Of a stretch of 36,107 bases of DNA, positions 33,270-35,687 are shown in pieces. The stretch is taken from the NCBI RefSeq assembly GCF_001679925.1, contig NZ_LYUZ01000013.1, positions 1-36,107 on the forward strand, read 5' to 3'. The first letter of the stretch is position 1; each line of letters begins with the position of its first letter. Source of the stretch: Leisingera sp. JC1 (lineage in GTDB: Bacteria; Pseudomonadota; Alphaproteobacteria; Rhodobacterales; Rhodobacteraceae). A program made the position numbers and the translations under genes. Under the pieces are notes generated by a model. The model searched no databases. It was given only the letters and a program-made list of their open reading frames with translations, and was not told where the DNA came from.

Positions 33270-33773
33270 TTAAGCGCCCCCGGCGCCGTCTAGGAATTCC
33301 ATTGGATCGAAACCTTCTGGCAGGTCGTCCATCCACTCTTCGGCCTGGGCCAGTTCTTCCTGCTCGTAGGTTTCCGGCTTCCAGATCTGGAAGGTGTCGC
33401 CTGCGGCAATGAAGAAGGCCTCTGCCTCAAGGTCGATTTTCTGGCGCAGCTTGGCCGGCAGCACCAGGCGGCCGGTCTCGTCCACGTTGGTCGGGAACGA
33501 CTGGCCGTGGAACATGCGCTGCAGCATCTTGCGCTGCATCGAGCCGCGCGGGAGCTGGTCGATCTTGGCGTCGACCTCCTCGATCGCCTCTATAGTATAG
33601 CATTCCAGGAAGTTGCGGCGCTGGTCGCCGTAGACGATCACCAGTTCGGGGTTCTGGCCGGGCTGCCAACTGGGATCGGCGGCCTCCAGCACACGGCGAA
33701 AGGAGGCCGGTATCGACACCCGCCCCTTTGTATCCACCTTGTGGTGGCTTTCGCCTCTGAACCTGCGGCCCAA
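33270..33773 (-). CDS. mraZ: Transcriptional regulator MraZ
   Basis: DNA-binding regulator with two AbrB-like swapped-hairpin domains; in E. coli it represses its own dcw operon by binding tandem TGGGN boxes. The duplicated DxxGR motifs are clear: SHHKVDTKGRVSIPASFRRVL near residues 10-30 and NVDETGRLVLPAKLRQKI in the second half. The frame is open to 33896, but the conserved N-terminus GRRFRGESHHKV begins just after a TTG at 33773 with AGGA about eight bases upstream. That gives 167 residues, so TTG is the start chosen; the upstream part is probably leader RNA. It heads the mraZ-rsmH-ftsL-ftsI-murE-murF-mraY transcript. An expanded array of TGGGA boxes lies 615-750 bp upstream. Confidence 0.94.
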   Translation of the reverse strand: MGRRFRGESHHKVDTKGRVSIPASFRRVLEAADPSWQPGQNPELVIVYGDQRRNFLECYTIEAIEEVDAKIDQLPRGSMQRKMLQRMFHGQSFPTNVDETGRLVLPAKLRQKIDLEAEAFFIAAGDTFQIWKPETYEQEELAQAEEWMDDLPEGFDPMEFLDGAGGA

Positions 33774-34036
33774 TTTCCCGTCCTTTTCGCGCGTCCCTCG
33801 CGTTAATCCGTCCCCCAGAATGAAAAGGGGCGGGTTGATCTGCTGCCACTGATCAACCCGCCGCCTTGGCCCGCTTTGCGGGATGTCCGACTGCACGCGC
33901 CACCTGGGGGGATGTCTGCTCGCCCGCGCGCCGGATCTCTTGTTCGATGAAAGCGAAGGCCTGTATGAAACCTGCTTGTTTTGTTTTTGGCTCTGGGGTC
34001 GTTTGGCGCCCCGTCCCTCGTCTCATCTGATGAACT

Positions 34037-34061
34037 AGGGATACTATGGGAATTGATGGGC
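34037..34061 (+). promoter_or_regulatory. Triplet of TGGGN-like boxes at exact 10-bp steps (opposite strand to mraZ)
   Basis: The plus strand reads AGGGA at 34037, TGGGA at 34047 and TGGGC at 34057, each separated by five bases. This is the box number and spacing described for the E. coli MraZ operator. It sits about 265-290 bp upstream of the mraZ start codon and reads away from mraZ. Confidence 0.45.
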
Positions 34062-34219
34062 TCGCAACTGTTTTCTGCGGGAAAGCGTCGAATCCTTGAC
34101 AAGGCTTCCATGGAATTTCTTAGGATTCGCGGCACATTTAGGGTTAATCCGGGAACTTGTAGTGAATAAACCCAGCGCAAACACTAGATATAGATGCGAG
34201 TTGCAGGGGCAATTTTTTT

Positions 34220-34232
34220 CCCATAGTTTCCC
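34220..34232 (-). promoter_or_regulatory. Pair of TGGGA/CGGGA boxes 10 bp apart
   Basis: CCC cores at 34220-34222 and 34230-34232 read as TGGGA and CGGGA on the mraZ strand, 10 bp apart, with a degenerate third (TTCCA) 9 bp further. Same orientation as the main array and separated from it by about 155 bp. Confidence 0.35.
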
Positions 34233-34382
34233 GCGATTCCACAGATACGGCGATCAGATTTCAGAAAGTTCCCGTTACGTTCACAACCTGGAGCGAGAAA
34301 CGCCTCTGAAATCGCCCCGCAAAAGCGTTTCAACACGCAGTGATTCGCAACTTCAAGGGGTGTTTTGCGGAAAGAGGGCCAT

Positions 34383-34525
34383 GATTTCCCATACCGCCCA
34401 TGATTTCCCAGCCGTCCCGTGAATTCCCAGCCATCCCACGCTTTCCCAGCCGTCCCATAAGTTCCCGCCCGGAGCAGCAAGTGCCATGCGGTCCCATTTC
34501 TGGCGGGCAATCCCATCTGCGCCCG
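34383..34525 (-). repeat. Tandem 19-bp repeat carrying 9-12 TGGGA boxes, candidate MraZ operator array
   Basis: On the mraZ strand the unit is close to ATGGGACGGCTGGGAAATC. Four near-identical units lie at 34383-34401, 34402-34420, 34421-34439 and 34440-34458. A half unit and at least two decayed units continue to about 34525. Each unit has two boxes, so CCC cores (plus strand) fall at 34388, 34397, 34407, 34416, 34426, 34435, 34445, 34454 and 34464, in steps of 9 and 10 alternately. Further cores at 34493, 34512 and 34522 stay close to that rhythm. MraZ is known to bind repeated TGGGN boxes near its own gene, and mraZ is the next gene downstream. Binding is inferred. Confidence 0.7.
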
Positions 34526-34560
34526 TTTGGCTGCACGCAACCGGTCCGCCGTCCTGTCAA

Positions 34561-34589
34561 ACAGAAATGGCCCGCCAGAACGGCAGGCC
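34561..34589 (-). terminator. Rho-independent terminator after mrp
   Basis: On the minus strand GGCCTGCC-GTTCT-GGCGGGCC (stem 34582-34589 / 34569-34576, one T-G wobble) is followed by ATTTCTGTTTG. It lies 33 bp past the mrp stop codon. It would insulate mraZ from mrp transcription. Confidence 0.55.
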
Positions 34590-34622
34590 AGTCAGGGCGC
34601 GTCATTTCCGTATGTGAATGCC

Positions 34623-35687
34623 TCAGGCCATGCCGCCGCCGATCAGGCCCTCGGCAATGCGGGCATAGGCCTGGGCCATCGGCCCCTCGCCCGCCGCTAT
34701 GGGCGTGCCGCTGTCGCCGGCCAGGCGGGTCTCCAGATCAATCGGCAGGGCACCCAAAAGCGGCAGGCCCAGGGTCTCTGCTTCAGCCGCGACGCCGCCA
34801 TGGCCGAAGATGTGATGCTCCCCGCCGCAATCGGGACAGGTGAAGAAGGACATATTCTCAATCAGCCCCAGCACCGGGGTTTTCAGCGTGTTGAACATGT
34901 CCAGCGCCTTGCGCGCATCCAGCAGCGCCACGTCCTGCGGGGTGGAGACGACGATGGCGCCGGACAGTTCCGCCTTGGTGCAGAGAGTCAGCTGCACGTC
35001 GCCGGTGCCGGGCGGCAGGTCGACGATCAGCACGTCCAGTTCGCCCCAGTTCACCTGCCCCAGCATCTGCTGCAGCGCGCCCATCAGCATCGGGCCGCGC
35101 CAGACCACGGCCTTGGCGTCATCCACCATGAAGCCGATCGACATCAGGGTGACACCATGGGCGTGCAGCGGCTCGATGATTTTTCCGTCCGGACTGGCGG
35201 GCCGCCCCTTGGCGCCCATCATCCGGGGCTGGGACGGGCCGTATATATCTGCGTCCAAGAGGCCGACCTTCCTCCCCTGTTTGGCCAGTGCCACCGCAAG
35301 GTTCGAGGACACGGTGGATTTCCCCACCCCGCCCTTGCCGGAGGCGATGGCCAGGATGCGTTTGACGCCGGCAGGTTTCAGAGGTTCAGCCTGCGGCTTC
35401 GGGTGGCCGCCGACCTTGAGGCTGGGCGCGGGCTGCTGCGGCGCATGGGCGGTCAGCGCGGCGGAGACGGTTTCGACGCCGTCCAGCGACAGCACCGCGG
35501 CCTCGGCAGCCTTGCGCAAGGGCTCCATCAGTTTGGCGATCTCAGGGCTTGGCGCCTCGATTACAAAGCTCACCTTGCTGCCCTCGATGCGCAGCGCGCG
35601 CAGCATGTCGCGTGAGACCAGCGTGCCGCCGTCCGGCAGCGCCAGCCGTTCCAGCACCGCGCGAATCTGTTCCTGTGTGACACTCAT
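34623..35687 (-). CDS. mrp: Mrp/NBP35 family iron-sulfur cluster carrier protein (ApbC)
   Basis: Cytoplasmic P-loop ATPase that binds and delivers Fe-S clusters; 354 residues. An N-terminal MIP18/DUF59-like domain (about 1-80, [48 protein letters not shown]) and a linker precede the ATPase domain. The deviant Walker A GKGGVGKS is at 117-124, followed by [17 protein letters not shown] and [17 protein letters not shown]. The cluster-binding CPDCG motif is in [17 protein letters not shown]. The ATG has GGAG eight bases upstream. It is a single-gene unit with its own terminator upstream of the dcw cluster on the same strand. Confidence 0.97.

Follow-up and report, generated by a model that had tools for sequence, protein, structure and literature searches.

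Few bacterial transcription factors are as conserved as MraZ, which is encoded by the first gene of the division operon; to our knowledge, there is no accepted answer to why it is a ring. In Leisingera sp. JC1, a stretch of 36,107 nucleotides (contig NZ_LYUZ01000013.1, hereafter the window) contains an array of TGGGA-type boxes in the gap of about 850 bp between mrp and mraZ. This raises the question of which protein reads the array and what it could do at such a distance from mraZ. According to the list of open reading frames, every gene in this terminal part of the window is encoded on the minus strand. The products of mrp, mraZ and rsmH were compared with Pfam, and that of mraZ also with NCBIfam; ftsL, ftsI and murE were named from gene order and translation. 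No RNA family or tRNA was detected across the window at gathering thresholds. The locus is organised as follows.

34623-35687, minus strand: mrp (Pfam match), with its stop at 34623.
34568-34590, minus strand: terminator-like hairpin after mrp (one found versus 1.1 expected in shuffles).
33270-33773, minus strand: mraZ, with a likely TTG start at 33773 (NF001476, 224.8 bits for a cut-off of 162; PF02381).
Downstream of mraZ, minus strand: rsmH, ftsL, ftsI and murE, in that order.

Since the hairpin lies past the mrp stop, the array is located outside the mrp gene. The mraZ product is the presumed binder of the array (site A) and of the two further box clusters described below (sites B and C).

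34377-34525, minus strand: site A, seven box pairs P1 to P7 ([T/C]GGGA-N5-[T/C]GGG, 15 bp each).
First bases of the boxes of each pair, minus strand: P1 34525/34515, P2 34496/34486, P3 34467/34457, P4 34448/34438, P5 34429/34419, P6 34410/34400, P7 34391/34381.

As the initial annotation had claimed, nine consecutive [T/C]GGG boxes follow each other on the minus strand with steps of 10, 9, 10, 9, 10, 9, 10 and 9 bp. Boxes further upstream keep the register of this chain, giving seven pairs in all, and two boxes are decayed (P2b, TGGCA; P7b, TGGCC). The 19-bp unit proposed at the same time is correct insofar as the pairs mostly recur every 19 bp, but the repeating unit is the box pair with its 10-bp step. 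Linkers of mostly 4 nt then produce a 19-bp lattice, and the successive spacings from P1 to P7 are 29, 29, 19, 19, 19 and 19 bp, the intervals P1-P2 and P2-P3 being the longer ones. Tandem Repeats Finder reported site A with a period of 19, 4.6 copies and a score of 90, the top score of the window. When the intergenic region was shuffled 5000 times with dinucleotides preserved, chains of 9/10-bp steps grew no longer than 4 versus 9 observed, and the box density reached a maximum of 9 per 155 bp versus 13 observed; 5000 shuffles of the array alone likewise gave a longest chain of 4. Site A is real and lies far beyond chance.

Within the 5.19-Mb assembly, the strict pattern TGGGA-N4/5-TGGGA-N4/5-TGGGA was found in a single place, which is site A, and both exact pairs of the genome lie within the array. 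As triple pattern and as exact pair, the motif is thus restricted to the genome's own dcw locus. Pairs with one mismatch occur in 22 more places, 19 of them on other contigs and three in the window (P7, C and one other site). On another contig (G000:C79:68893-68907), the sequence TGGGAAATGATGGGC shows one mismatch to the pair consensus and is possibly a further MraZ site. A coding reading of the array was also considered: frames are open on both strands, but the period of 19 bp is not divisible by three and the linkers drift, and this reading was rejected.

The conservation of the array was investigated in a sample of 21 genomes of the genus, 20 of which gave an MraZ match, with one MraZ gene per genome. 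Each of these 20 genomes has retained the array. Per genome, [T/C]GGG is present in 9-13 of 16 lattice slots; the slots P4b to P7a are occupied in 19 or 20 of the 20 genomes, P7b is TGGCC or TGGTC in all of them and P2b is intact in five. The alignment contains 1.92 bits per column in GGG, 1.39 in the N5 inside the pair, 0.90 in the N4 linker and 0.63 in the next ten nucleotides. The alignment of the mrp-mraZ gap among relatives proposed in the initial annotation gives fixed box positions and drifting 4-nt linkers across the genus. As GGG and N5 are more conserved than the N4 linker, the selected unit is the pair and not the bare 19-bp repeat; the pair also has its own spacer (AAATCA or AATTCA type). 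The array also accompanies an mraZ of Leisingera type (89% identity) in JAHVJD010000007.1 (L180), labelled Nocardioides marinus, a label which is probably wrong.

The question of distance is answered downstream of the array, where the following features were identified.

34219-34233, minus strand: site B, box pair CGGGAaactaTGGGA, in the same orientation as A; present in 20/20 genus genomes at 173-174 bp from C.
34037-34061, plus strand: site C, three-box operator AGGGA-N5-TGGGA-N5-TGGGC, steps 10 and 10, in opposite orientation to A and B.
34038-34067, minus strand: deduced dcw/UpsM promoter TTGCGA-N18-TATCCC, from the sequence and the family logo.
33829-34031, minus strand: UpsM-like leader with a deduced start at about 34031, its length being near the 206 nt of UpsM.

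The array had been regarded as standing in place of a proximal operator; however, a canonical operator overlooked at that stage exists at site C, which reads AGGGAtactaTGGGAattgaTGGGC with exact 10-bp steps. The site C pair TGGGAATTGATGGGC and the array pair TGGGAAATCATGGGC share all box bases and differ in two spacer bases. Both sites consist of TGGGN direct repeats with a 10-bp step, continuous in C and, in A, as 10-bp pairs linked by 9-bp steps. The element is alignable in 106 of 117 Rhodobacteraceae genomes (one per genus), and two of the 11 others had less than 200 bases of upstream sequence. In these 106 genomes, it covers the -35 and -10 elements as well as the stretch that separates them. 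A scan with the sigma-70 consensus gave no promoter-like site in 33700-34640, and the promoter call therefore rests on the family logo, which reads TTGATT-N17 (boxes inside)-CATCCC, followed by CA about seven bases on. Site C thus lies upstream of mraZ at the deduced dcw promoter, and A and B lie 158-332 bp from C. In two genomes (L108, G066; L114, G052), seemingly extra or shifted reverse-strand boxes were observed at C, about -360 to -280 before mraZ, and site C itself may vary in length among family members.

About 258 nt separate the deduced transcription start from mraZ. The predicted leader ends in a terminator-like hairpin of 12 bp at 33829-33862, which precedes CCTTTT and is conserved in the genus; a minimum free energy of -94.6 kcal/mol was calculated for the leader (z -3.6; none of 200 shuffles was equally stable). 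The locus thus shows the UpsM-type arrangement, in which a long putative leader contains an intrinsic terminator-like hairpin ahead of mraZ. In the available text of Weber et al. (PMC5089854), the dcw 5' leader of R. sphaeroides measures 268 nt, mraZ has no transcription start of its own, and the 206-nt sRNA UpsM ends at a terminator inside this leader. The deduced promoter of the window is located where a leader of this length would place it. The statement that the array is more than 600 bp from mraZ is correct, with P7 at 618 bp from the likely TTG start at 33773. This distance is due to the long leader; from site C, the array is only 332 bp away.

Distal box pairs were then counted across the Rhodobacteraceae with one strict pattern throughout. 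Excluded from the counts on 112 genomes were short upstream stretches (L042, L052, L059, L092, L118, L069) and G037 (L037), which has no upstream sequence. Between -800 and -380, 131 pairs with a 5-nt spacer were found in forward orientation in 71 of the 112 genomes and none in reverse, and every other spacer of 2-13 nt gave just 2-8 distal pairs each. With all family sets pooled, 332 forward distal pairs were detected in 173 of 244 genomes, again with none reversed. They fall into two zones, A and B. Outside the family, distal pairs are rare and without such orientation (two forward and seven reverse in 24 genomes). With the strict pattern, both A and B pairs are missing in 56 of the 222 genomes with C, which surely reflects divergence in some of them and perhaps true absence in others.

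The array itself appears as the end of a series. Box density rises to 13-14 per 155 bp in the genus, whereas none of the other 111 family genomes exceeds 8. Among named relatives, many Ruegeria have one pair and Tropicibacter has two; Roseobacter SK209-2-6 and Roseovarius nubinhibens each have three, and Leisingera has up to seven. A Phaeobacter sp. MAG (L186) displays five regular pairs with 4-nt linkers; its ten consecutive boxes exceed the chain of the window by one. Outside Leisingera, the commonest pair-to-pair distance is 19 bp (20 times, versus 7 for 22 bp and 4 for 23 bp), and the 19-bp geometry is thus a family trait. The initial annotation had named an array absent in close relatives and present elsewhere in the genome as an ordinary repeat as evidence against an operator; the array is instead kept in the genus and shorter in related genera.

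Other motifs were observed between A and C. A GAAC-N7-GAAC sequence, which we take to be the alphaproteobacterial form of the LexA box, is located between A and B (34268-34282, minus strand); its place is fixed in 16 of 20 genus genomes, and it occurs in 13 of 112 family genomes versus 0.85 expected from shuffles. Just downstream of B, the palindrome-like CTATATCTAGTGT (34181-34196, minus strand) resembles an NrdR box, as judged with a consensus that we assume for NrdR; a score of at least 12/16 was reached in 56 of 112 family genomes versus 16 of 560 shuffled segments, and the sequence could be a promoter element instead. GANTC sites, presumably the CcrM methylation motif, are enriched in 34110-34350 (e.g. 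34342-34346), with 2.42 per 370 bp in the family versus 1.60 in shuffles, and 4.55 in the genus. One of them lies inside a block CTTG...GCGAATC conserved directly after the array.

The helical phasing of the three clusters was analysed using the distances between the 3'-most pair of A, the 3'-most pair of B, and C. In the genus (20/20 genomes), these were 157-159 bp for A-B, 173-174 bp for B-C and 330-333 bp for A-C. The corresponding values of the window, measured from P7, are 158, 174 and 332 bp, all on the modes of the family. Family distances are multimodal, with A-B near 124, 135, 146, 156 and 167 bp and B-C near 152, 162, 173 and 183 bp. A first set of 177 dissimilar genomes, from whose named relatives L180 and L212 (both close to Leisingera) and three near-duplicates had been removed, gave R values of 0.75 for A-B (n=69), 0.78 for B-C (n=96) and 0.47 for A-C (n=100) at 10.70-10.90 bp; for each of the three, all 2000 jittered sets stayed below the observed R. 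For the distances to mraZ, R was 0.10-0.14, and 605 to 1374 of the 2000 jittered sets gave at least the observed value. In the pooled set (245 dissimilar loci, 222 with C, segments deduplicated by 10-mers), R was 0.74 at 10.85 bp for A-B (n=85; bootstrap 10.7-11.0), 0.78 at 10.80 bp for B-C (n=125) and 0.48 at 10.75 bp for A-C (n=126); at 10.0 bp, the values were 0.41, 0.69 and 0.14, respectively. A period slightly above 10.5 bp tends to result from looping in living, negatively supercoiled DNA. The phasing held with isolated pairs only, with strict C only or with single-pair genomes only. An artefact of the lattice as source of the phasing was rejected on these grounds and because the pooled R is lower at 10.0 than at 10.8 bp.

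A prediction fixed beforehand was then applied to 69 loci from genera not previously sampled, taken from among the matches listed; L296, which repeats L187 of the first set, was removed, and G300 as well as three new loci from the genus of G119 (four genomes) were left out. R reached 0.67 for A-B (n=16) and 0.77 for B-C (n=29), both above the pre-set thresholds. The mraZ-distance controls gave 0.03, 0.26 and 0.09, of which the 0.26 for B-mraZ is over the pre-set limit of 0.25. The A-B phase was 3.8, compared with 4.6 predicted by eye and 3.67 when recomputed for the first set. Taken alone, the new genera do not separate the periods for A-B (R 0.66 at 10.0 bp versus 0.67 at 10.9 bp), whereas the pooled data do. 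In the genus of G108, B-C is 172-173 bp in six of six loci; the A-B value (R=0.39, n=6, with one outlier) derives partly from a spurious pair near B. Further searches for relatives added no family members beyond those sampled before.

Shared ancestry inflates these statistics, as the distances of related genera are not independent. In Ruegeria (26 loci), B-C is mostly 160-164 bp, indicating that much of the distance clustering follows descent. The B-C class of 170-176 bp makes up 68 of the 125 pooled loci, and R is still 0.75 without it. The distal sites thus keep a constant helical phase relative to site C at the promoter, with a contribution of shared ancestry remaining. The initial annotation had expected the mean step of 9.5 bp to place the boxes on one face of the helix. 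The lattice however precesses at 10.5-10.9 bp per turn, and it is the clusters A, B and C that are phased instead. By arithmetic, the 19-bp repeat lags about 2.8 bp per pair at about 10.9 bp per turn, so that only P7, P6 and P3 match the family phase to B to within about 2 bp, in contrast to P5, P4 and P1. Being out of step with the helix, the array does not lie on one face; the lattice may supply pairs on all faces, or may reflect contacts of neighbouring subunits or rings on wrapped DNA. The boxes, their pair unit, conservation, orientation and phasing are all shown by the sequence itself.

Several observations point to MraZ as the binder. In E. coli (NC_000913.3), TGGGA, TGGGG and TGGGA are located at -43, -33 and -23 of mraZ. 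Among other Alphaproteobacteria, 28 loci were collected, of which 24 with at least 3000 bases were used for pair counts and 26 for TGGG distances (two without the motif were dropped). On the reverse strand upstream of mraZ, TGGG-TGGG distances of 10, 20 and 30 bp occur 56, 38 and 24 times in the 26 loci, and the 10-bp distance occurs twice on the forward strand; a proximal reverse-strand pair was found in 19 of the 24 genomes. The D-x-K-G-R and D-x-x-G-R motifs of MraZ are invariant in 22 aligned sequences including that of E. coli. According to the accessible part of the report, the B. cenocepacia protein binds close to the dcw start site, at a series of four repeats of 7 nt that are separated by 3 nt and thus have a 10-bp period (PMC7761207). 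The same box and step in E. coli and in Alphaproteobacteria, together with the 10-bp period in B. cenocepacia, suggest that site C is the ancestral operator. The initial idea of an enlarged MraZ-type operator seems largely right, given the same box and 10-bp step in E. coli, in 19 of 24 Alphaproteobacteria and in 106 of 117 family genomes.

From the above, we infer that MraZ is the binder, that a loop is formed and that repression is the effect. It is reasonably probable, judging from sequence, that MraZ binds all three clusters in a phased and looped complex for repression, of which A is amplified in Leisingera. The three sites would be bound by MraZ, a ring-forming repressor encoded just downstream. 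Site C would be the ancestral operator, overlapping the core promoter of the UpsM-type leader and the dcw genes, and because of this overlap MraZ on C is proposed to block RNA polymerase. The role of auxiliary operators, in the opposite orientation to C, would fall to B, which lies 174 bp upstream of C, and to A, another 158 bp away. As a multivalent ring, MraZ could hold the three sites together, one ring or several touching rings joining them in a stereospecific complex, and such a loop would require a near-constant helical phase of the clusters. In Leisingera, the distal operator would have been amplified to seven pairs on a 19-bp lattice, which may provide higher local MraZ occupancy, more cooperative repression or different pairs serving the loop. 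A bolder version, about which we are doubtful, considers MraZ as a small DNA-wrapping ring: the array would be wound round one or more rings with one box pair per neighbouring subunit pair, and the wrapped array would dock via B onto C, the dcw promoter being switched by a phased particle with one to seven pairs tuned by genus.

Other explanations have to be weighed against the looped complex. MraZ could bind A, B and C independently, with A mainly serving as a sink or local reservoir that sets free MraZ and with no loop formed. The high box density of the genus, 13-14 per 155 bp when the other 111 family genomes have no more than 8 and the E. coli operator has three boxes, would suit such a role, but a sink requires no fixed place, orientation or phase, and A and B hold both their orientation (332 to 0) and their phase to C, making this explanation unlikely. 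A lower probability still is assigned to a neutral tandem repeat produced by slippage from one pair and functionless beyond that pair. Array length does vary among genera and the boxes of the upstream end decay. An ordinary repeat would however drift regardless of the box core and have copies at unrelated loci, and site A shows neither: GGG is fixed in the genus (1.92 bits) as N4 drifts (0.90 bits), the 19-bp pair spacing recurs 20 times outside Leisingera, and the array occupies a single locus in the genome. It is thus highly improbable.

Another regulator reading TGGGA pairs could also bind A and B, which together with C would form an upstream activating or architectural element. Nearby motifs that we take to be of the CtrA, GcrA, LexA and NrdR types suggest a crowded control region, and in the parts of the reports available, NtrX binds upstream of mraZ in R. 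sphaeroides (PMC7240162), where CenR enrichment is described as well (PMC9275681). Against this stands the sharing of all box bases between the A and C pairs, with two spacer bases differing, and the match of one MraZ gene per genus genome; moreover, the NtrX motif given in the accessible text, GCA-N9-TGC, is unlike the box (PMC7240162). A regulator other than MraZ appears about as improbable as the sink, and these two are the chief competitors of the looped complex.

If the looped complex is true, the distal, oriented and phased boxes present family-wide give a concrete reason for the ring, namely that it bridges operators. The main division and cell-wall operon of the Rhodobacteraceae would then be under looping control, with a natural array series of one to seven pairs.

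Several known systems resemble parts of this arrangement. The window has a leader of similar length to that of UpsM in R. sphaeroides, likewise with a terminator-like hairpin (compared by reported lengths); in the available text of that account, operator boxes are not described, and the terms TGGG, repeat and binding site are absent (PMC5089854). The repeats of Burkholderia cenocepacia have a 10-bp period like the Leisingera boxes but form one proximal cluster, a long leader and distal phased clusters not being described in the accessible part of the report (PMC7761207). The solved MraZ structures (1n0e/1n0f/1n0g, 9qlg, 9r4j, 9qlr, 9sx6, 9sz7) are of homologues of the Leisingera protein. No account of MraZ looping or of distal MraZ arrays was found among the literature matches listed (open-licence PubMed Central). 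The MraZ operator of E. coli, which was reportedly described by Eraso and colleagues in 2014, is like site C composed of direct-repeat TGGGN boxes with 10-bp steps just upstream of mraZ, but has only three boxes in one cluster, 23-43 bp from the start codon (304 bp upstream examined), and we know of no distal MraZ box clusters in this organism. Auxiliary operators are familiar from looping repressors of the lac, gal and ara type, where distal sites for one multivalent protein are phased with the promoter operator, as proposed here for A, B and C. In contrast to these systems, the protein in Leisingera would be the ring-shaped, AbrB-like MraZ, acting through a putative loop on boxes that are direct repeats and not palindromes and that extend into a long distal array.
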